Below the pieces are notes generated by a model. That model had not been told where the DNA came from and made no database searches. It worked only from the letters and a program-made list of their open reading frames with translations. From Synechococcus sp. MW101C3 (GTDB taxonomy: Bacteria; Cyanobacteriota; Cyanobacteriia; PCC-6307; Cyanobiaceae): DNA of 64,000 nt. The stretch is taken from the NCBI RefSeq assembly GCF_002252635.1, contig NZ_NQKX01000001.1, positions 186,001-250,000 of the forward strand. Direction: 5' to 3'. Shown one piece after another: positions 34,957-59,159 of this stretch. Within the stretch, counting starts at the first letter, position 1, and each line of letters starts with the position of its first letter. The position numbers and the translations under genes are program-made.

Positions 34957-35895
34957 TCAGAGCGCTGCCGCCGGATCAATGCGGGCCATGGCTGCTGCCG
35001 CGGCATCGCAGAGAACCTGGTGGGCAGGTCCGTGGCTGGCAATCAGGCAACCGGCCTGGCGGAAGTCCCCAGTGTTGTACAGCAAAGGCCGCCCATCGGC
35101 GTGAGTGAAGGCGCCACCTGCTGCCAGCAGCACCGCTTCGGGAGCCGCCATGTCCCAGTCCTTCGGAGCTGTCTTGCCGGACAGGGAGATGTAGAGGTCG
35201 GTTTCGCCGCGCAGGATCGACGCCACCTTCCCCCCCACACTCCCGCGCGCGATGCCGCTGGCGATCGGCAGTGAGGTCATCAGCTGTTCCAGCCGGTCGT
35301 CGCGGTGGCTGCGGCTGGTGACCGGAATCAGGCTCGACAGTGCGGTGCGCCCGCTCAGGGAAGGGGCATGACGTTCCCCGTCCGGCGCTTCCTTCCAGGC
35401 GACGGGTGGCTCGATCCCGTCGGGGTCGAGCCACCCGAACCAGAGCTCATCGAGCTCTGGCAGCAGAACCACCCCGAGGGCAGGCCGCTGCTGGTGCACT
35501 AGGGCCAGATGCACGGCGTATTCGCCGGTGCCCTGAAGGAAGTCCTTGGTGCCATCGAGGGGGTCGAGGATCCAGAGCCAGTCGTTGGCGATGGCCTGAT
35601 CGGCGGGCCACTGACCCGTGGTCTCCTCGCTGAGGATGGCCCAGGAGGCTGCTGGGAAGGCGCTCTGCAGCCCCTTGATCAGATGCTCGTTGACGGCAAG
35701 ATCGGCTGCCGTGACTGGTCCTTTGGGATCCTCATCCACCGAGAGGATCGGCGGATAGCCGAACGGAGGGGTGTCGCCGCGGGCATAGGCCCGCAGGATG
35801 GCCGCCGCCTCCCAGCACAGCCGCCGAACGGCAGTGAGAACCGCGGCGACTTGATGGCCGGCGAGCGTGCTTTCTGCGAAGTAGAGCTCCTTCAT
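34957..35895 (-). CDS. cysQ: 3'(2'),5'-bisphosphate nucleotidase, CysQ-type inositol monophosphatase family
   Basis: A 312-residue metal-dependent phosphatase. Motifs are the ILSEET region, WILDPLDGTKDFLQGTGEYAVHLAL (core aspartates) and KDWDMAAPEAVLLAAGG (second metal site). Expected role is hydrolysis of 3'-phosphoadenosine 5'-phosphate. ATG 35895 (MKELYFAES) overlaps the nrdJ stop by 4 nt (ATGA); a longer in-frame start at 35928 is less likely. It is followed by cysC. Confidence 0.9.
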   Translation of the reverse strand: MKELYFAESTLAGHQVAAVLTAVRRLCWEAAAILRAYARGDTPPFGYPPILSVDEDPKGPVTAADLAVNEHLIKGLQSAFPAASWAILSEETTGQWPADQAIANDWLWILDPLDGTKDFLQGTGEYAVHLALVHQQRPALGVVLLPELDELWFGWLDPDGIEPPVAWKEAPDGERHAPSLSGRTALSSLIPVTSRSHRDDRLEQLMTSLPIASGIARGSVGGKVASILRGETDLYISLSGKTAPKDWDMAAPEAVLLAAGGAFTHADGRPLLYNTGDFRQAGCLIASHGPAHQVLCDAAAAAMARIDPAAAL

Positions 35896-38240
35896 GGTTT
35901 CTGGGGCTTGGCCAGCGGCAGCAGGCATTTGTCGGAGTCGCAGCCGGCTGGACCCGCCTCCACCAGTTCGCCGTTGTCGTAGCGCTGCAGGGAGGCGAAG
36001 AAATCGAATTCGCGGCGCCGCGCCGCCACCTCCTCCTGTAGGCGCTGGTAAGTGGCCTGGTCGATCGGCTCGAACGGCAGGCGGGGGAAGGTGGCGTTGG
36101 CATCGAAGCGGGCCAGAAGCGCCGCCGAGATGTATCCCTTGCCTTGATCGATCGCTGCGTGAATGGCTTCAGCGAGAGGTTCGATTTCGTTTTCGCGGAA
36201 CTCGACCGTGGCTGAGGTGTTGTGGGCGGTGTAGTGCTGTTGGACCTGCATGTAGAAGTCAAACTGGGCCAGCGCCGAGAAGCTGTTGATCTCCACGGCG
36301 TCGGCGCCGGGCAGGTTGGCCCAGCTCACTTCGGTGGGGATTTCCACCAGCCACTCGGTGCAGCGGGGATCAAACGGATCATCCAGCAGGCGGCCCTGTT
36401 CATCCTTGTCGCTCTGGCTCGGCACGATCGTGTAGCCGTAATCCATGCAGGCGAGTGCCACCGGATCGTTCTTGCGGAAGGTGATGCGGCGGATGAAGCG
36501 CTGGGCCTTGGGCGGATGCCAGCCGGGGCTGGCGCCGGTGAGCAGGCTCTTGGTGCCGGCGGGCTGAACCGTGGTGCAGCGGTTCGGGCGGCGCAGACCA
36601 TGGCGGTCGCAGTAGTCCCACACGGCCTCGTTCACCGCCGTCTTCCAGCGCGATAGGTAGGCGGCTTCCTGTTGCTTGAACGCCAGCCCGGCCTCGCTGT
36701 CCGGACGGCCCTCCTCCCACCAATTGAGCCAGGGGGTGCCGAAGGCATGCACGAAGAAATCGAACAGGCCCGTGAAGCTCACACCCACGATCGGATCCCA
36801 GGCACGGCTCTGGCGGTAACGCTCCACCTCAAAGCGGTGGTTCAGCAGGCAGGCCACCGCCAGACCGGCGGCGCGGAAGGCATCCGCCTGGCCCTCGTGG
36901 TCGGCGGGGTCGATCTGGTTGAGGTGAATCTCCGCCAGGTTGCAGTGGAAATCGGCGCCGAGGATCTCGCCGCAGGGGTTGAGGCCGTAGCGGCTGAGGC
37001 GGTGCTCAAGTTCGGCGTCCGTGATCTGCGGATGGTTCAGCTGCAGCCAGCGGCCCGCTTCCTCACGGCCCTGATCGCAGTAGATGGTGATGAACTCGCT
37101 GCGCAGTTCAGGGGTGGACAGCAGGTCGGCATTCGAGCGGGCGATCGCCTCGGGGGCGAACTGGATGGCGCCTTCGCCGCTCTGAAACTGCTTGAGCACC
37201 GCCTCCCGCACCACCTCGCGGCTGGGGCGGGTATGGAACACGCGTGTGTGGTTGGCCATGCGCAGCGCATCGCGCTCGGGGTCGATGCGCCAGTTGCCTT
37301 CCGCGTCCTGCTGCCAGAGGTTCTCCTTGGCGCCGGCTGCGGAGGCGTCGTCTGCGCAGAATTGCCGCATGCCCGCACTGCGGCGGATGTTGCCGGCCAC
37401 GATCGTGACGGCCGCCTCATCGATCAGCAGGCAGCATTCCACTGAGCTGAGCTGGCGGCCATGGGCCTTGTTGAGGATCTCGGCGACGCGCCCGTAGAGG
37501 TCTTTGAGCTTCACCGGGTTGGCCATGCCGCCGAACCCCTTGAGCGTTTCGCCCACAGGACGCACATCGGAGAGGTCAACGCTGACCGTCACCTCACCGT
37601 CGAAGCGGACATCGCTGCTGAGCTCCAGCAGGAGCTGGTAGCTGTCCACCCAGCCGCGGCGGGTGTCGCCCACCTTGATCGCCACGTCGTGGCCCGTAAT
37701 CGTGTGGGTGGTGTGCTCCTGGCGCTGGCCGGCGGGAGTGGCGCCGATGTCGGTGACGGAGGTGATCCGCAGGCGGTTGCGCACCGCAGGCAAGCGATCG
37801 ATCAGCCGAGGCTCGATGATGGCGCCCGTGCCGCAGCCCATCATCGCCAGGTCCATCATCAGACCGAAGGCTTCCCAGTCGATCAGGTTGGTGGAGGTGC
37901 AGTTGTAGGCGCCGGAGAAGTTCTGGGGCTGCTCGATCCAGTCGGTGCCACCGATCCACAGCCAACGCCCTGAGGGCAGAGCCTGCTGCCGTTTATGCAT
38001 CCGGCGCAACAGGGCCACTTCCTCGGCGTTGAGGTTGCCGAGCCTGCGCAGCCCTTCGAGGTTGCGCTCGCTCACCTCCTGCCAGCTTTCGCGCCCGTTC
38101 GGAGTCTTGCGGCTGTAGGTGCGGTAGAAGACCGGGTTCGCCGCCGGCGCCGTGACGGGGAAATCCGCAGCGGCGGCTTCTGGCAGGCCAGCCAGCCGGG
38201 TGAGCTCGGCTGCGGTGGCAGGCGTGGCGGAGAGGGTCAC
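35892..38240 (-). CDS. nrdJ: Adenosylcobalamin-dependent ribonucleotide reductase (class II)
   Basis: A 782-residue single-chain class II reductase that makes deoxyribonucleotides using adenosylcobalamin, with no separate radical subunit. The active site is visible as NPCGEI, and C-terminal redox cysteines occur in GCDSDKCLLPLAK. Other family parts are NFSGAYNCTSTNLIDWEAFGL and MMGCGTGAIIEPRLI. Length is typical of the monomeric ribonucleoside-triphosphate reductases. The start is ATG 38240. Upstream on the same strand lies an inverted repeat (38270-38302), with a divergent methyltransferase gene beyond it. Confidence 0.95.
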   Translation of the reverse strand: MTLSATPATAAELTRLAGLPEAAAADFPVTAPAANPVFYRTYSRKTPNGRESWQEVSERNLEGLRRLGNLNAEEVALLRRMHKRQQALPSGRWLWIGGTDWIEQPQNFSGAYNCTSTNLIDWEAFGLMMDLAMMGCGTGAIIEPRLIDRLPAVRNRLRITSVTDIGATPAGQRQEHTTHTITGHDVAIKVGDTRRGWVDSYQLLLELSSDVRFDGEVTVSVDLSDVRPVGETLKGFGGMANPVKLKDLYGRVAEILNKAHGRQLSSVECCLLIDEAAVTIVAGNIRRSAGMRQFCADDASAAGAKENLWQQDAEGNWRIDPERDALRMANHTRVFHTRPSREVVREAVLKQFQSGEGAIQFAPEAIARSNADLLSTPELRSEFITIYCDQGREEAGRWLQLNHPQITDAELEHRLSRYGLNPCGEILGADFHCNLAEIHLNQIDPADHEGQADAFRAAGLAVACLLNHRFEVERYRQSRAWDPIVGVSFTGLFDFFVHAFGTPWLNWWEEGRPDSEAGLAFKQQEAAYLSRWKTAVNEAVWDYCDRHGLRRPNRCTTVQPAGTKSLLTGASPGWHPPKAQRFIRRITFRKNDPVALACMDYGYTIVPSQSDKDEQGRLLDDPFDPRCTEWLVEIPTEVSWANLPGADAVEINSFSALAQFDFYMQVQQHYTAHNTSATVEFRENEIEPLAEAIHAAIDQGKGYISAALLARFDANATFPRLPFEPIDQATYQRLQEEVAARRREFDFFASLQRYDNGELVEAGPAGCDSDKCLLPLAKPQKP

Positions 38241-38302: not shown

Positions 38303-38415
38303 CATCCTGCACCAGCGGCAGTGTCTGTACGGCTCGCCAGGGGCTGACCGCCCCACCAGCGCCGGCTGCCGCCCCGCCGGGGCTGCGCCAGGCTGGCGGC
38401 GCTGCGGTGGTGGCC

Positions 38416-39087
38416 ATGGAGCGGATCTGCGAGCCCGAGCTGATGGACGACGCCGAGCAGGCGCGCGCCTATGCCGACGCCGACTTCGCTGCCGGTGACC
38501 GCGCCCTGCTCAAGCGCACCGAGGACCTGTTCGGGCCACAGCTGGGGCCGCGGATCATCGATCTGGGTTGCGGACCCGGCAACATCAGCTTCCTGCTGGC
38601 GGAGCGTTATCCCACGGCCCGGGTGCTGGGTCTCGATGGCGCCCCCGCCATGCTGGCGATCGCCGCCGCGCGCCTGCAGGCCACGCCGGACCGCTGGCCA
38701 GGGCTGAGCTTTCAGCACCTGTTGCTGACGCCGGGGGGTGCCCTGCCGCAGGAGGGCCGCTGGACGGCGGTGGTCAGCAACAGCCTTCTGCACCATCTGC
38801 ACGATCCGATGGTGCTGTGGCAGGCGGTGCGCCGGCTGGCGGTCCCCGGAGCGGCCATCTGCATCAAGGATCTGCGCCGTCCGTCGGATCCAGCGGCCCT
38901 GGAAGAGCTGGTGCAGCGCCATGCCGCCGGTGCTCCGCCCGTGCTGCGGCGTGATTACGCCCAGTCGCTGCGGGCGGCCTTTCGCCGCGTGGAGGTGGAG
39001 GCGCAGCTCCAGCAGGCGGGGATCGAGGGGTTGGCGGTGCGGGAGCTCGACGACCGCTACCTGGAGGTCTGGGGACGATTGGCCTGA
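38416..39087 (+). CDS. Class I SAM-dependent methyltransferase
   Basis: A 223-residue methyltransferase. The SAM-binding motif is IIDLGCGPGNISFLLAERYP, followed by LGLDGAPAMLAIA (motif II) and VVSNSLLHHLHDPMVLW. The frame may also start at GTG 38407, but ATG 38416 is preferred (MERICEPELMDD). The substrate cannot be inferred. It is divergent from nrdJ and followed by the HEAIH-motif gene after 63 nt. Confidence 0.85.
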   Translation: MERICEPELMDDAEQARAYADADFAAGDRALLKRTEDLFGPQLGPRIIDLGCGPGNISFLLAERYPTARVLGLDGAPAMLAIAAARLQATPDRWPGLSFQHLLLTPGGALPQEGRWTAVVSNSLLHHLHDPMVLWQAVRRLAVPGAAICIKDLRRPSDPAALEELVQRHAAGAPPVLRRDYAQSLRAAFRRVEVEAQLQQAGIEGLAVRELDDRYLEVWGRLA

Positions 39088-39150: not shown

Positions 39151-39966
39151 GTGCTGCCCCACGCCCGCCGTTGGCGCCGGCCCTGGAGGCCTGCCCTGGC
39201 GCTGGCCCCAGCCACCGGCGCCGCTACCGCGGCTGTTCTTGCCATCGCGGTAGCCGCCATGGGCCTTGTGCCACTGGCGAGCGCGCCGGTGGTGGCACAG
39301 GCTCTGCGCCCTCCCGCCTGGTTGCAGGCGCCTCCGGCCAGCATCGGTCCGATCCAGCCCACCTGGGAAGCGCTGCTGTTCGCCCGGCTCGATGCCGGTG
39401 ATCAGGCCTGGTTGCCCCGCCCGCAACGGTTGCCCGATGGCCGACTCCGCTACGTGTACCGGCAGCGCCGTGGTGAAAGAGATCTCACCATGGCCCAGAT
39501 CCACGACCTGCTGCGCAATCCGCCCCGCTATACCGCCGAGCGGTCCGCCATCACTTCCCTGCTCGCCCAGCTGTGGGGCCTGGGGGTGCGGGTGGAGCTG
39601 ACCACCCCGCGGGTGGCGGCGGCGGCCGGCGAATGGGTGCCCCGTGAGGCGGTGATCCGGATCCGGCCGGATGTGCCCGACCGCGGCACCCTTGATTTCG
39701 CCGCTGTGCTCAACCACGAGGCCATCCATGTGGCCCAGAGCTGCCGAGCAGGCGGCCTCAGGCGGCCGCCCACCCCCCTGGGCCTGCCGGTACGCCTGTC
39801 GCCGGAAGCGCGGGAACTGCTCGCCCAGCCTCTCTACGCCCGCATCCCCCCCCTGGTGCGCCAGCTGGAGCTGGAGGCCTTCAGTCATCAGCGGGATCTG
39901 GCCCTCGGTGCCCACCTGCTGCGCAGCCTCTGCCGGCCGGACAGCCGCCTCGGCCTGGCAGGCTGA
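39151..39966 (+). CDS. Exported protein with HEAIH metallopeptidase-like motif (paralogue A)
   Basis: A 271-residue protein with a basic N-terminus and one hydrophobic segment (about residues 15-48), so probably secreted or membrane-anchored. Residues 189-193 read HEAIH within [13 protein letters not shown], a HExxH zinc-site pattern, with glutamates 47 and 49 residues downstream (LELEAF). Two cysteines (AQSC and SLCRP) are conserved with the paralogue at 58332 and could form a disulfide. Activity is inferred from the motif; I do not know a named family. It precedes prfC by 4 nt. Confidence 0.75.
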
Positions 39967-39970
39967 GACC

Positions 39971-41629
39971 ATGACCAGCGCCTCCCCCCCACCCGTTTCC
40001 CCCAGCGACGACATGGCCGGGGTTGCCCTGGCTGAAGCGGTGGCGAAGCGGCGCAACTTCGCGATCATTTCCCACCCGGACGCGGGCAAGACCACCCTCA
40101 CCGAGAAGCTGCTGCTCTACGGGGGGGCGATTCAGCAGGCCGGTGCGGTGAAGGCCAAGGGAGAGCAGCGCAAGGTCACCTCCGACTGGATGGAGATCGA
40201 GAAACAACGCGGCATCTCGATCACCTCCACCGTGCTGCAGTTCGACTACGCCGGCAGCACGGTGAACCTGCTCGACACGCCAGGCCACCAGGATTTCTCG
40301 GAAGACACCTACCGCACCCTCGCCGCTGCCGACAACGCAGTGATGCTGGAAGACGCCGCCAAGGGCCTCGAACCACAGACCCGCAAGTTGTTCGAGGTCT
40401 GCCGGCTGCGCAAGGTGCCGATCTTCACCTTCATCAACAAGATGGACCGGCCGGGCCGCGAGCCACTCGAGTTGATCGATGAGATTGAAAGTGAGCTGGG
40501 CCTCACCTGCTGGCCGGTGAACTGGCCGATCGGCAGCGGTGATCGTTTCCGTGGCGTGATCGATCGCCGCAGCAAGGACGTGATCCTGTTCGAGCGGGCG
40601 GAGCGGGGCCGCCAGTCGGCGGAGAAGCGCTTGGCGGCCGGCAGCCCCGAGCTGGCTCGGCTGGTGGAACCGGAACTGCTGGCGGCGGCGCTGGAGGAAC
40701 TGGAGCTGCTCGATGGTGCCGGCGCCGAGCTCGATCTCGAGCTGGTGCATGCCGGGGAACTGAGCCCGGTGTTCTTCGGTTCGGCGATGACCAACTTCGG
40801 CGTGCGTCCCTTCCTGGATGCCTTCCTGGAGCTGGCGCAGCGGCCGGTGGCGCGGCTGAGCAGCGACGGCCCGGTGGATCCGCTGCGGCCGGAGTTCAGC
40901 GGCTTCGTGTTCAAGCTGCAGGCCAACATGGACCCGCGCCACCGCGACCGCATTGCCTTCGTGCGGGTCTGCAGCGGCCACTTCGAGAAGGACATGAGCG
41001 TGCGGCATGCCCGCAGCGGCCGCACCATCCGCCTCTCTCGTCCCCAGAAGCTGTTCGGGCAGGACCGTGAGGTGGTGGAGGACGCCTATCCCGGTGATGT
41101 GATCGGCCTGAACAATCCCGGCATGTTCGCCATCGGCGACACCCTCTATGCCGGCAGCAAGGTGGAATACGAAGGTATCCCCTGCTTCAGCCCTGAACTG
41201 TTCGCCTGGCTGCGCAACCCCAACCCGTCGGCGTTCAAGAGCTTCCGCAAGGGGGTGAACGAGCTGCGGGAGGAGGGAGCCGTGCAGATCCTCTATGACA
41301 CCGATGCCAGCAAGCGCGACCCGATCCTGGCGGCCGTGGGCCAGCTGCAGATGGAGGTGGTGCAATACCGGCTTCAGAACGAATACGGAGTCGAAACGCG
41401 CCTCGAGCCCCTCGGCTTCAGCGTGGCCCGTTGGGTGGTGGGCGGCTGGGCGGCGCTGGAGGCGGTGGGGCGCATCTTCAATTGCAAGACCGTGCGCGAC
41501 GCCTGGGACCGGCCGGTGCTGCTGTTCAAGAACGAGTGGAATCTCAACCAGCTGCGGGAAGACCACCCCGCCTTCGAGCTCAGCGCCGTGGCGCCGGTGG
41601 TGAGCGGCGTGGAGCCGATCGCCCTCTGA
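39971..41629 (+). CDS. prfC: Peptide chain release factor 3
   Basis: A 552-residue GTPase that recycles release factors RF1/RF2 from the ribosome. The G-domain motifs are SHPDAGKTT (G1), [11 protein letters not shown] (G2), DTPGHQDF (G3) and NKMDRPGRE (G4). The C-terminal domain contains [22 protein letters not shown] 39971 follows the HEAIH gene by 4 nt; upstream in-frame codons read through that gene and are not RF3. Length fits the family. Confidence 0.95.
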
Positions 41630-54636: not shown

Positions 54637-57600
54637 TCAAACCACCAACACCGCCGCATTCCTGGCGGCTGCTTGGTCCTGGCGCTGGGCGTCGGTGAGG
54701 CCATCAGCGGCGGGGATCTGGCCGGCCATGGCGGTGAGCCACTCCATCAGGGTGTCGAGCTGCTTCTCGGCGGGGAGCACGCTGAGGCCGCGGGCCAGCA
54801 CTTTTGCGGTGCTGCCGGCGCCGCCCTGATACACCAACCGGCCGTGCAGGTGCTGGGGCAGGCCCTGGCGCAGCAGCCGGAAGGCGGGCTCCTCCATCGG
54901 GGTTTCCAGCACGATGTTGGGCTTTTCGGGCTTGAGGCGTGAGAAGCCGCAGCGTTTGGCCAGCAGTTTGAGTTCCATCAACTGCAGCAGGCTCTGCACC
55001 GGCGCCGGCAGGGCCCCGTAGCGATCCACCCAGTCGGCAGCCAGCTGGAGCAGTTCGCTCTTGGCGGTGCAGCCGGCAGCAGCCCGGTAGGCGGCCATCT
55101 TTTCGTCCGCTTCGGTGATCCAGTCGGCGGGGATGAAGGCGGTGATCGGCAGATCGATCTGGGTGTCTTCCACCACGGGGATGTCCTGGCCCTGGATCTC
55201 CGCCAGGCTTTCCTGCAGCATCTCCATATAGAGGTCGAAGCCGATCGCTTCGAGCTGGCCGCTCTGCTCCACCCCCAGCAGGTTGCCCACGCCGCGGATC
55301 TCCATGTCGCGCATCGCCAGCTGGTAGCCGCTGCCCAGTTGCGCGAACTCCTGGATCGCCCGCAGCCGCTGCCGTGCCGCCTCACTGAGGGCGCCATCAC
55401 CGGGATAGAACAACCAGGCATGGGCCTGGATGCCGCTGCGGCCCACCCGACCGCGCAGTTGATACAGCTGGGCGAGGCCGAATCTGTGGGCGTCTTCCAC
55501 CAGAATTGTGTTCACCCGTGGGATATCCAGGCCGCTTTCGATGATCGTGGTGCAGAGCATCACATCGGCTTCGCCGGCATTGAAGGCCACCATCGCGCTC
55601 TCCAGTTCCCCTTCGGCCATCTGGCCGTGGGCCACCAGCAACTTCAGGCCCGGCAGCATCTCGCGCAACTGGCCCGCCACCTCCTCGATTCCCTCCACCC
55701 GCGGCACCACGTAGAACACCTGGCCGCCACGATCCAGTTCCTGGCGGATGGCGCTGCGCACCGCCTCATCGTCGCGGGCGGCCAGGTGGGTCTTGATCGG
55801 GCGGCGCAGCGGTGGCGGCGTGGTGATCAGGCTCATCTCCCGCACCCCCGACAGGCTCATGTAGAGCGTGCGTGGAATCGGCGTGGCGGAAAGCGTCAGC
55901 ACGTCGACGTCTTTTCGCAGCGCCTTGATCTTCTCTTTCTGGTTCACACCGAAGCGCTGCTCCTCGTCCACCACCAGCAGCCCCAGTTGCTTGAAGCTGG
56001 TGCCCTTGCCCAGCAGCTGGTGGGTGCCCACCACGATGTCGATCGTGCCGGCGGCCAGCCCTTCCTGAATCGCCTTGCGCTCCAGCGTTGTGCGGAAGCG
56101 ATTGAGCAGCGCCACCTTGAGCGGGTAGGGCGCAAAGCGTTCGCTCAAGGTGCGCCAGTGCTGCTGGGCCAGCACCGTGGTGGGGGCCAGCAGCGCCGCC
56201 TGGCGTCCGGCGGTCACCGCCTTGAACAACGCCCGGATCGCCACCTCGGTCTTGCCGAAGCCCACATCGCCGCACACCAGCCGGTCCATCGGCTTGGCGG
56301 TCTCCATGTCGCGTTTCACTTCCGCGATCGCCTTCAGCTGATCCGGCGTGGGCTCATAGGGGAAGGAATCCTCCAGCTCGCTTTGCCACGGGCCATCGGG
56401 CGGAAACACGATGCCGGGGGCCTGATGGCGCTCTGCGTACAGCTTCACCAGGTCGAGCGCCACCTTGCGCACCGCCTTGAGCGCTCTCTCCTTGGCCCGC
56501 GCCCAGGCCACGCCCCCCATGCGGTTGAGCTCCGGCGGCGTGTCGGTGCTGGCGCGGTAGCGGCCCAGGCTGCCCAGCTGGTCGGCGGCCACCCGCAGGG
56601 TGCCGTCGGCGTACTGCACCACCAGGTAATCGCGGCTTTCGCCGCTGATCGCCAGCTTCTCCAGCTTGAGGAAGCGGCCGATGCCGTGATTGCGGTGCAC
56701 CACGAAATCGCCGGGTTGCATCTTGCCCGGATCCACCGTGCGGCTGGCCGCCTTGCGGCGCCGCCGCACATAGCCGCTGGCGGCCAGGCTGTGCTGGCCG
56801 AAGAACTCCCGGTCGGTGAGCAGCACCAGCTTCCAGGCCGGCAGTTGCAGCCCTTCCAGCTCGGCGGTGCCCTTGAGCTTGAGCGCCACAGGTGTGTTCT
56901 GCTCCACCAACCGCTCGATCGCCGGGAAGTCGTGCGGGTTGGGCACGAAGCGGGCGATGCAGTCGTGCTCCTCCAGCAGCGCCACCGCCCGTGACGGCTG
57001 GGCCGAAAGCAGCCACACCTTCGCCTTTTCCTGTTGGTAGCCCTTCACCAGCGCCGCTAGGCGGCCGAAGGCGTTCGGATGGGCCGGCACCGGACGGCTG
57101 GAGAGATCGAAGGCGTTGGGGTGGCGGTCGGTTTCCGCCAGTTCAGCCAGATCGAAACCGGCGAACGCCTCGACATCCTCAAGGGCCTGCTCGGGCGGCC
57201 GGTGCAGCAGGGCGGGCAGTAGCACCGGCTGGCCGCAGGCTGCCGCCAGCTCCGCCTGCACCTCGCCGTGGTGGCTGTCGGCGTGATCGAACCACTGCTG
57301 GCCGTGGGCGCGACAATGGCGCCGCTCATCCACCGCAATCAACGTCCTGGCGGGCAGGTAATCGAGCAGGGAGGCGGGCCGCGCCCAGGCCAGACCCATC
57401 AGCCGCCGCATCCCCTCGGGCGTGCCGCCCTCCAGCAGCTGATCGAGCGCTTCCGGCTGCAACAGCCCCTCGAGCCCCACCGGCATCGTTTCCCGCAGGG
57501 CATCCGCCACCAGCGGGCCGTAGCCACTGGGGGTGAGCCGCACCGCCTCGGTGGCATCGAGCGAACGCTGGGTGGCGGGGTCGAATTCCTTGAGCTTCTC

Positions 57601-58230
57601 CAGCTCCTCGCCGAAGAACTCCAGCCGCACCGGCAGCTCGGCGCTCACCGGAAACACGTCGACGATGTCGCCGCGGCGGCTCCAGCTGCCCTCCTGCTCG
57701 ATCGTGGGCACCCGCTCGTAGCCGAGGCGGCTGAGGGTGTCGGCCAGCTGCTCCAGGTCCACCGTGTCGCCCTTGCGCAGGCACAGGCAGCGGGCGGCCA
57801 GGGCCGCGGGCGGCGGCAGGTGGGGTTGCAGGGCCCGCTCGGTGGCCACCACGGCCCCCTGCCACGGGTGGCTGTTGCCGTCGGCGCTTCCCGCATCCAC
57901 CAGCTCGGCGAGTACCTGCAGTTGCCCCCAGGTGATCTCGGTGGTGGGATCGAAGGGTTCGTAGGGCGAGCCCTCACTGGTGGGATAAAGCTGGGCCGTG
58001 GGCCAGCCCATCAGTTCCAGCAGCGCCGCCCAGCGGCCCGCCTCTTCCAGCGTGGGCACGATCACCAGCAGAGGCGTCTGCCGCTGCCGGGCCAGGGCAC
58101 TGGCGATCAGAGCACGACCGGCCCGGGAGGCGCCCCGCAGGCTCAGCCGTTCTTGGCGCTCGATCCGTTGCAGCACCTCACCGGTGAGGGGCACCTGCTC
58201 GAGCTGGCGCACCAGGGCGGTGAGGGGCAT
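54637..58230 (-). CDS. mfd: Transcription-repair coupling factor Mfd
   Basis: A 1197-residue DNA translocase that removes stalled RNA polymerase and recruits UvrA. A UvrB-like N-terminal part is followed by the RNA-polymerase-interacting domain (GDFVVHRNHGIGRFLKLEKL). The helicase motifs are CGDVGFGKTEVAIRA, APTTVLAQQH, VVDEEQRFGVNQKEK, LSATPIPRTLY and QLRGRVGRSG. ATG 58230 (MPLTALVRQLEQVPL) is chosen; upstream in-frame codons are not Mfd-like. It diverges from the second HEAIH gene by 101 nt. Confidence 0.97.
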   Translation of the reverse strand: MPLTALVRQLEQVPLTGEVLQRIERQERLSLRGASRAGRALIASALARQRQTPLLVIVPTLEEAGRWAALLELMGWPTAQLYPTSEGSPYEPFDPTTEITWGQLQVLAELVDAGSADGNSHPWQGAVVATERALQPHLPPPAALAARCLCLRKGDTVDLEQLADTLSRLGYERVPTIEQEGSWSRRGDIVDVFPVSAELPVRLEFFGEELEKLKEFDPATQRSLDATEAVRLTPSGYGPLVADALRETMPVGLEGLLQPEALDQLLEGGTPEGMRRLMGLAWARPASLLDYLPARTLIAVDERRHCRAHGQQWFDHADSHHGEVQAELAAACGQPVLLPALLHRPPEQALEDVEAFAGFDLAELAETDRHPNAFDLSSRPVPAHPNAFGRLAALVKGYQQEKAKVWLLSAQPSRAVALLEEHDCIARFVPNPHDFPAIERLVEQNTPVALKLKGTAELEGLQLPAWKLVLLTDREFFGQHSLAASGYVRRRRKAASRTVDPGKMQPGDFVVHRNHGIGRFLKLEKLAISGESRDYLVVQYADGTLRVAADQLGSLGRYRASTDTPPELNRMGGVAWARAKERALKAVRKVALDLVKLYAERHQAPGIVFPPDGPWQSELEDSFPYEPTPDQLKAIAEVKRDMETAKPMDRLVCGDVGFGKTEVAIRALFKAVTAGRQAALLAPTTVLAQQHWRTLSERFAPYPLKVALLNRFRTTLERKAIQEGLAAGTIDIVVGTHQLLGKGTSFKQLGLLVVDEEQRFGVNQKEKIKALRKDVDVLTLSATPIPRTLYMSLSGVREMSLITTPPPLRRPIKTHLAARDDEAVRSAIRQELDRGGQVFYVVPRVEGIEEVAGQLREMLPGLKLLVAHGQMAEGELESAMVAFNAGEADVMLCTTIIESGLDIPRVNTILVEDAHRFGLAQLYQLRGRVGRSGIQAHAWLFYPGDGALSEAARQRLRAIQEFAQLGSGYQLAMRDMEIRGVGNLLGVEQSGQLEAIGFDLYMEMLQESLAEIQGQDIPVVEDTQIDLPITAFIPADWITEADEKMAAYRAAAGCTAKSELLQLAADWVDRYGALPAPVQSLLQLMELKLLAKRCGFSRLKPEKPNIVLETPMEEPAFRLLRQGLPQHLHGRLVYQGGAGSTAKVLARGLSVLPAEKQLDTLMEWLTAMAGQIPAADGLTDAQRQDQAAARNAAVLVV

Positions 58231-58331
58231 TGGGTCGTGTGGCGCAGGGATCCCGATCCTGGCAGTTGCACTCCTGCCGCTGCTTTGCTGGTGCAGATCG
58301 ACCATCATGAAGGTCACGTTGATCTCTGGGA

Positions 58332-59159
58332 GTGAGCCGGCACCATCCCCCGCGTGGATCGGGCGCTCCCGTGCTGCCGCTGACGCTGTTGGCCGCTGGT
58401 CTGCTGCTGGCGGGCCTGGCGGTGGCGCCGCCCGAGCGCAGGGGCGAAACCCTCGGCGCACTGGAAGCGCTGCCGTTTCAGGTGTCGGACACGCTGTTCG
58501 CCCGGCCCCCGGCCCCCCTGCGGCCGGGCGATGTGGCCGTTGATGCCTTCATGGCCGGCGATCTGATGGCGCGGCTGGAGCAGGCCGATGTCGACTGGCA
58601 GCCGCAGGCCGAGGTGCTGCCTGACGGCGGTGTGCGTTACCGCTACCGCCGCCGCGAGGGAGACCCCAAGCTCTCGATCGAGCAGATCCGCGCGCTGATG
58701 CTCGATCCGCCGCGCTTCGAGCGCGAGCGACAGGCGATCCGCGATCTGCTCGATCAGCTGCAGCGGGTGGGGGTAAGGGTGGTGCTGGGCCCGCCCCGCA
58801 AGGCCGGCGCCGCCGGTGAGTGGGACCCTGCCGCCCGCACAATCCGCATCAAGCCGGAGGTGGTGGACCAGGGCAGCGCCACCTTTGCTCTGGTGCTGAA
58901 CCATGAGGCCATCCATGTGGCGCAGAGCTGCCGCCGCGGGGGGGTGTCGGCCCCGCCCAAGCAGCTTGGGCTCTCCATTACCGCCAGGCCCCAGGCCCAG
59001 GGGCAGCTCAACGACCCGATCTACGCCAATCTCTCGCCCCTGGAGCGCCAGCTCGAGCAGGAGGCCTATGCCAACCAGGACCAGCTGGAGAAGGGGGCCG
59101 GCCTGATCAGCCAGGAATGCCGCCCACCGGTGGGTTGGTCAACTGCCTGGCCCAGCTGA
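58332..59159 (+). CDS. Exported protein with HEAIH metallopeptidase-like motif (paralogue B)
   Basis: A 275-residue paralogue of the protein at 39151-39966. A hydrophobic segment near residues 13-33 suggests a signal or anchor. Residues 191-195 are HEAIH within [13 protein letters not shown], with glutamates 47 and 49 residues downstream (LEQEAY) conserved in both copies. Two cysteines (AQSC, QECRPP) are shared. Other shared parts are LPDGxxRYxYR, PPRxxxER and GVRV. The start is GTG 58332. A zinc-dependent peptidase is the best guess, not a demonstrated activity. Confidence 0.75.
   Translation: MSRHHPPRGSGAPVLPLTLLAAGLLLAGLAVAPPERRGETLGALEALPFQVSDTLFARPPAPLRPGDVAVDAFMAGDLMARLEQADVDWQPQAEVLPDGGVRYRYRRREGDPKLSIEQIRALMLDPPRFERERQAIRDLLDQLQRVGVRVVLGPPRKAGAAGEWDPAARTIRIKPEVVDQGSATFALVLNHEAIHVAQSCRRGGVSAPPKQLGLSITARPQAQGQLNDPIYANLSPLERQLEQEAYANQDQLEKGAGLISQECRPPVGWSTAWPS

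Follow-up and report, generated by a model that had tools for sequence, protein, structure and literature searches.

A candidate exported gluzincin-like peptidase encoded ahead of prfC in Synechococcus sp. MW101C3, and its relatives in cyanobacteria and phages

The gene that immediately precedes prfC in Synechococcus sp. MW101C3, here called gene A, is predicted to encode an exported zinc endopeptidase of gluzincin-like type. From sequence comparison and a predicted structure, we put a probability of roughly two in three on this reading, in which gene A would also be a duplicate of a gene linked to mfd and would be co-transcribed with prfC while having no function in common with it. At the least, the product is probably what the sequence-only reading of this DNA had proposed, an uncharacterised and exported zincin-type candidate peptidase, given its predicted fold and its conserved His, His and Glu. 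Profiles and models place it in a gluzincin-like family whose tested members reach no Pfam or NCBIfam model and which is partly covered by the phage cluster PHROG 16003. Features of the window (the whole 64,000-nucleotide stretch that was analysed) are collected in Table 1.

Table 1. Features of the window that bear on gene A
Feature	Position	Strand	Basis
Gene A, candidate exported HExxH peptidase, 271 aa	39151..39966	+	ORF, family alignment, AlphaFold2 model
N-terminal hydrophobic segment, residues 25-43, probable signal peptide or anchor	39223..39279	+	Kyte-Doolittle hydropathy; export predicted
HEAIH, residues 189-193; predicted zinc ligands H189 and H193, predicted general base E190	39715..39729	+	Sequence; putative roles
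C198 of gene A	39742..39744	+	C in 49/49 rows of alignment A3, 16/16 of A4, 16/16 of A5
E240, predicted third zinc ligand (ExxA)	39868..39870	+	E in 49/49 A3, 16/16 A4, 16/16 A5; in A6 E 40/46, D 6/46
E242, second conserved glutamate	39874..39876	+	49/49 A3, 15/16 A4 (one Q), 46/46 A6
C261, possible disulfide partner of C198	39931..39933	+	Alignment; putative pairing
prfC (peptide chain release factor 3)	39971..41629	+	TIGR00503, 773.9 bits; cut-off 467
SAM-dependent methyltransferase-like gene, upstream of gene A	38407..39087	+	Reaches no NCBIfam cut-off
Adenosylcobalamin-dependent ribonucleoside-triphosphate reductase, upstream of the gene A locus	35892..38240	-	TIGR02505
Gene B, paralogue of gene A, in the widespread mfd-linked group	58332..59159	+	Sequence, gene order, tree
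HEAIH of gene B	58902..58916	+	Pattern search
mfd (transcription-repair coupling factor), divergent from gene B	54637..58461	-	TIGR00580, 999 bits

Gene A and its predicted active site

Gene A starts with GTG and ends with a TGA stop at 39964-39966. The sequence-only reading had described an open reading frame with HEAIH at residues 189-193, downstream glutamates at +47 and +49, a hydrophobic N-terminus, two cysteines common to a paralogue 19 kb away, and a distance of 4 nt to prfC. Each of these was found again: relative to H193 the glutamates are E240 and E242, the cysteines C198 and C261 are present in gene B as well, gene B is 50% identical to gene A across 207 aa, and the coordinates, with prfC identified by TIGR00503, place its ATG at 39971, which leaves a 4-nt gap after the gene A stop. 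Searched with a degenerate DNA pattern for HEAIH, the window has two matches, one each in genes A and B, against a mean of 0.00 in shuffled sequences (n=100). Compared with the orthologue from Synechococcus sp. ATX 2A4, gene A has a dN/dS of 0.155 over the whole gene and 0.088 over the domain, with prfC at 0.065 as the yardstick in the same comparison, and is under purifying selection.

Export of the gene A product is predicted by hydropathy alone. The 19-residue Kyte-Doolittle mean peaks at 2.22 from residue 25 in gene A and at 2.35 in gene B. Relatives were collected from named genomes with the peptide pattern HE[AS]IHVAQ, which returned 119 stretches, 98 of them relatives, and the best 80 of these 98 were kept. 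A hydrophobic segment with a mean of at least 1.6 precedes the domain in 76 of the 80. Three of the four exceptions (L052, L060 and L105; 1.23-1.42) share the gene order of gene A (A-type), so that half of the six named A-type relatives fall under the threshold, which counts against export.

All 49 aligned relatives have the same residue as gene A at H189, E190, H193, Q196, C198, E240, E242, A243 and C261; for HExxH and Q196 this is partly by construction of the search pattern, which is not so for the glutamates and cysteines. Sixteen divergent members from hosts and phages show a single change at these positions, E242 to Q, once. Among 46 viral rows, collected with a pattern that contained HExxH, Q and C, the position of E240 is glutamate in 40 and aspartate in six, and E242 is always kept. 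A less biased set is given by the 66 homologous ORFs that were found by profile in fetched host regions, of which 60 have the exact HExxHxxQxC spacing; the other six comprise one C198R, four with the cysteine one place later and one with no cysteine. Four loci (L196, L204, L211 and L222) have a variant, HEGWHxVQ, in which the conserved cysteine stands one residue away from its usual place. The gluzincin-type combination is conserved, with HExxH intact in 66/66 of the profile-found ORFs and the downstream Glu (E240) in 49/49 rows of alignment A3 and 16/16 of A4. Both cysteines persist in a branch of the family without a signal peptide, so their conservation is no proof of an oxidising compartment.

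Predicted fold and comparison with known families

The sequence-only reading had recognised no named peptidase family, and this still holds: gene A matches no Pfam or NCBIfam model at E <= 1, and its relatives have only sub-threshold matches to SprT-like, eCIS core, DUF6782 and Peptidase_M76, among others. A PADLOC search with gene A found nothing. Against PDB sequences, a profile search with a limit of E 10 returned one irrelevant row (Rep, E 0.13), with the minigluzincins absent.

Structure prediction followed by fold comparison, proposed earlier as a check, yielded a confident fold whose best solved matches are zinc peptidases. The AlphaFold2 model of gene A has a mean pLDDT of 84.9, with block means of 91-98 for residues 71-260 and lower values at the ends (mean 66 for 261-270, the block that holds C261); that of a distant phage relative, modelled from other sequences, reached 92.3. 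Foldseek against the PDB gave no match at E <= 0.001 for either model. IrrE/PprI is the top solved match of both (Z 7.1, rmsd 3.5 and 87 aligned for gene A; Z 7.6, rmsd 4.0 and 93 aligned for the phage relative), at Z values below 8, which may reflect no more than a common arrangement. Mostly zinc peptidases follow, including lethal-factor-type proteins and ArdC, with other kinds (LonA, for example) lower in the ranking, and the first 16 rows for gene A are zincin-fold proteins by title or recall. The mycobacterial regulators among the fold matches presumably carry an M78 domain. SPRTN/SprT is also represented, if 6mdx, a DNA-protein crosslink protease, is of SprT type, as we assume; selecase, abylysin and jannalysin we take to be the minigluzincins.

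IrrE/PprI (Peptidase_M78, PF06114) resembles gene A in its HExxH, in the glutamate of an ExxA motif and as first fold match. PprI is a cytosolic protease that cleaves the repressor DdrO. However, PF06114 has no match in gene A at E <= 1 or in the window's genome at E <= 0.001, and the hydrophobic N-terminus and the two conserved cysteines of gene A set it apart from IrrE/PprI. Profile comparison against a rough M78 set gave probabilities of 1% for the host profile, 62% for a mixed host-phage profile and 19% and 34% for phage profiles, over the HExxH half only. SprT-like/SPRTN (PF10263) likewise shares HExxH and appears below threshold in relatives (12.3 bits in gene B; 6mdx, Z 4.5), but the tested proteins stay below its 25.6-bit cut-off, gene A has no match, and E <= 0.01 was reached in 1 of 49 and 2 of 46 rows. 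Much the same was seen for Peptidase_M76 (PF09768), presumably Atp23, which has HExxH in common with the family and matched 6 of 46 phage rows at E <= 0.01 (best 0.001); its best weak match of 20.1 bits (L175, same-family) and all others with known bits lie below the 25.2-bit cut-off, and gene A has none. The minigluzincins are small single-domain folds whose best rows have a weak Z of 4.5 in both fold searches.

DUF6782 (PF20573), a putative metallopeptidase, matches relatives below its threshold along their HExxH half, with 19.6 and 16.6 bits. At E <= 0.01 it matches 16 of 98 cyanobacterial genomes, some at members of the gene A family. Of 14 control genomes it matches three, Synechococcus elongatus being one of these; a single one of the three exceeds the cut-off. 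It was rejected as the identity of the family: no genome among the 98 exceeds its 27-bit cut-off, gene A has no match, and the best relative stops at 19.6 bits.

PHROG 16003, a phage family of unknown function, matches two viral relatives at 1.5e-22 and 8.5e-18, gene B at 2.4e-4 and gene A at 0.0081; at E <= 0.01 it reaches 12 of 20 relatives, and among 14 control genomes it matches Synechococcus elongatus alone. In the viral rows the motifs follow one another as in gene A, but these rows have four cysteines rather than two, and gene A is longer, with an extra N-terminal region.

Gene order, origin and distribution

In the named loci (the best 80 of 98 relatives), mfd adjoins the homologue and points away from it in 74 of 80, a count that, like those for umuC and the sliding clamp below, may represent one inherited arrangement. 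The remaining six have a methyltransferase-like gene of the window's type and prfC nearby; in five of these six, prfC is the next gene downstream, within about 75 nt, and the 4-nt gap recurs in the orthologue of Synechococcus sp. ATX 2A4. In Cyanobium sp. CACIAM 14 (L054) the A-type gene has an in-frame stop and prfC lies about 2.9 kb away; this gene is either a decaying copy or a sequencing error. A contig titled as a Bifidobacterium breve MAG (L093) holds an mfd-linked cyanobacterial locus and is probably mis-binned. An N-terminal CxxC...CxxC pattern is present in 33 of 74 B-type loci versus none of the six A-type loci. In the window itself, the listed start of the mfd ORF probably lies too far upstream. 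A third, more distant copy of the family, with the motif HESAH, is found on another contig of the same genome; its N-terminus is zinc-ribbon-like at 18.9 bits, below the Pfam cut-off of 29.

A tree of the 'quick' kind was constructed from 111 rows and 139 columns; 40 of its 108 inner branches are open, and it warns of long branches meeting, one of them beside the umuDC/phage clade. It omits L054 because of its stop, eight near-duplicate or B-type loci (L202, L203, L206, L209 and L234-L237) and five further ORFs that depart from the exact motif, and its B-type and viral rows are a chosen set only. In this tree the six A-type rows (the window and five of the six named loci) form one clade (SH-aLRT 95), which nests in a 22-row clade with B rows (SH-aLRT 96). 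From this nesting, gene A is best read as a lineage-restricted duplicate of the mfd-linked gene. Among the 66 ORFs from fetched host regions, eight adjoin mfd, four divergently as gene B does and four downstream on the same strand, the latter forming a clade of their own (SH-aLRT 99). This second exported-looking clade, 3' of mfd and apart from the divergent B position, comprises L175, L198, L218 and L220.

With gene A as query, matches were obtained in 140 of 400 same-family genomes and in 14 of 292 genomes of the phylum. A profile of the divergent members matches 67 of the 292 phylum genomes and 35 of 36 same-family genomes (own included; own count from a kinship-ordered listing), the one miss being G274. 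The profile also has weak matches in genomes from other classes (E 1e-7 to 1e-3), several of which may belong to other zincins. The sequence-only reading had pictured a protein of picocyanobacteria and suggested a phylogenetic profile. This description proved too narrow, as the family extends to other cyanobacteria, to phages and to a form without a signal peptide.

In a viral structure library, gene A has five matches at E <= 0.001. The first eight rows are five named Synechococcus phage proteins (best 1.1e-5; Syn5 gp14 at 2.3e-3), two nameless entries and one of another kind. Two viral relatives searched against 50,697 phage records at E <= 1 matched 22 and 29 records, all from Synechococcus phages or Cyanophage PSS2 and all below 60% identity. 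When host and phage profiles are compared, their alignment has 98.5% probability (E 3.5e-15) and spans 130 columns, among them HExxH, ExEA and the final Cys. Scanning viral contigs with a pattern returned 476 stretches, of which 191 are relatives, and the 80 best of these were retained; no relative turned up when a myovirus member served as a single-sequence query against viral contigs. By our own sorting, the 81 viral ORFs from 81 loci, some of them near-copies, divide into 40 that look exported and 41 without a signal peptide. Of the 40 exported-looking ORFs, 16 are followed in the fetched stretch by a T7-like RNA polymerase gene, 14 of them at a distance of no more than 331 nt. The homologue stands directly 5' of this polymerase gene in Syn5 and P60; in S-CBP42 and S-TIP28 a single small gene separates the two. 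In S-CREM2 (L189, 1797-2402) and S-CRES1 (L190, 1887-2450), the homologues have an S-type phycobiliprotein lyase gene nearby. The annotation of S-CREM2 gp108 is metallopeptidase, a word that is absent from the main text of PMC10665884. Among the matches listed for picocyanobacterial and cyanophage metallopeptidases, the available parts of the open-access literature yielded no description of the family.

Viral ORFs without a signal peptide have a different neighbourhood. The sliding-clamp gene (gp45) is upstream in 30 of 41, within 6 nt in 28 and with denV in between in two; of the other 11, one has only gp44 and ten have neither. In the T4-like cyanophages DSL-LC02 (L319) and S-SRM01 (L320) the homologue directly follows the clamp gene, and in SynMITS9220M01 (L321), also T4-like, denV separates the two. 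The DSL-LC02 homologue is annotated as a serine hydroxymethyltransferase, probably wrongly. Ten viral rows of this form group with 12 umuDC-type host rows and one other host row (SH-aLRT 94).

On the host side, umuC adjoins the homologue in 17 of the 66 ORFs from fetched regions, of which 16 are of Prochlorococcus type, on the same strand and within 104 nt, and one is of the exported type. The 16 (L163-L170, L174, L228 and L233-L238) lack a signal peptide and lie 3' of umuD-umuC in Prochlorococcus-like genomes; UmuC, UmuD-like S24, DnaG and Mfd were confirmed by Pfam among the neighbours tested. Linkage of umuC to the exported short type was considered and dismissed, since it was seen only at L210 of G270, one of 30 loci returned, with 42 genomes of its genus covered. 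In a second, overlapping sample, 54 of 151 same-family genomes match the Prochlorococcus type at E <= 1e-6, and the window's genome is not one of the 54; umuC is adjacent on the same strand in 25 of the 30 returned loci and not in five; three of these 30 (L352, L373 and L377) repeat loci of the first sample.

Each of the 16 umuD genes has a LexA-like box 25-41 nt ahead of its start that agrees with the consensus at 12 or more of 14 positions (shuffle p <= 0.01 in every case), although these genomes are related and the 16 boxes are not independent events. This was obtained with the looser consensus, AGTACWNWTGTACT, as given in PMC3091678; the stricter published Nostoc LexA motif matched one of 13 umuD loci and none within the window. 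PMC2921402 reports LexA sites at Prochlorococcus umuC and umuD, and PMC3744912 describes induction of umuC by mitomycin C in two marine Synechococcus strains and a cyanobacteria-specific gene, SYNW1405/sync1474, that is up under mitomycin C. No LexA-like box was found upstream of gene A, its methyltransferase gene, gene B or prfC (best 7-9 of 14 positions, shuffle p 0.455 to 1.0).

Proposed function and its alternatives

We propose that the gene A product would be a small zinc-dependent endopeptidase of a new gluzincin-like family, with the motif order HExxHxxQxC...ExEA...C. Judged from its sequence, the hydrophobic N-terminus would take the protein out of the cytoplasm, either secreted or tethered to a membrane. 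H189, H193 and E240 would hold the zinc and E190 would activate water, as motif and fold suggest, and a disulfide between C198 and C261 may staple the active-site helix to the C-terminal helix. The enzyme would cleave some protein in the periplasm or the thylakoid lumen. Gene A would be a selectively maintained duplicate of gene B, and its position next to prfC would reflect co-transcription, not a common function.

Since likeness of fold shows no function, the protein could instead keep the zincin fold and metal site while serving as a metal-dependent binder, chaperone or inhibitor; we consider this unlikely, as a pure binder need not keep the catalytic Glu of HExxH, which is retained in 66/66 host ORFs and 16/16 divergent members. 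Less probable again is action in the cytoplasm on DNA-bound or SOS-related proteins, with an N-terminal segment that is no export signal. Consistent with this would be the divergence of the B group from mfd in 74 of 80 loci, of which 33 also show a zinc-ribbon-like CxxC...CxxC, the position of the branch without a signal peptide 3' of umuDC, the title of the best fold match, IrrE/PprI, as a DNA damage repair regulator, the presence of 6mdx among the rows, and the weaker hydrophobic segment in three of six named A-type relatives. However, a strong hydrophobic segment precedes the domain in both A and B, the LexA-like box is absent upstream of the window genes searched, gene A adjoins prfC and no repair gene, and the umuDC-type protein finds no match in the window's genome.

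The sequence-only reading had coupled gene A to prfC. The 4-nt gap, in the window and in ATX 2A4, and the place of prfC as next gene in five of six A-type loci agree with this as far as position goes. The pairing is rare, though, at six of 80 loci against 74 of 80 for mfd, prfC is distant in CACIAM 14, and gene A nests in the mfd-side group; a functional role in translation termination through co-expression with prfC is therefore very improbable.

For the branch without a signal peptide, the umuDC and sliding-clamp neighbourhoods suggest, by association of gene order, a DNA-damage role like that of SPRTN or IrrE. This says little about gene A, which has no LexA-like box upstream and whose neighbour is prfC. 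More tentatively, and with the odds in our estimate against it, the whole could be one zinc-peptidase family of picocyanobacteria and phages that works in two compartments. The non-exported branch would be an SOS or replisome protease with a role like SPRTN/IrrE, co-expressed with UmuDC in Prochlorococcus and placed beside the clamp, sometimes with denV, in T4-like cyanophages, where it would remove or regulate proteins that sit on damaged DNA; the exported branch, including A and B, would be the same enzyme redeployed outside the cytoplasm, and other phages would export copies of their own while they infect.

Picocyanobacteria rank with the most abundant photosynthetic cells, and this putative protease family is present in 35 of 36 sampled relatives and in many phages. 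The positions of the branch without a signal peptide, beside umuDC and the phage clamp, raise the questions of whether this branch acts as a protease in DNA damage and what phages gain from it. The comparison provides, for the genes of the window, candidate catalytic residues and a history of duplication.
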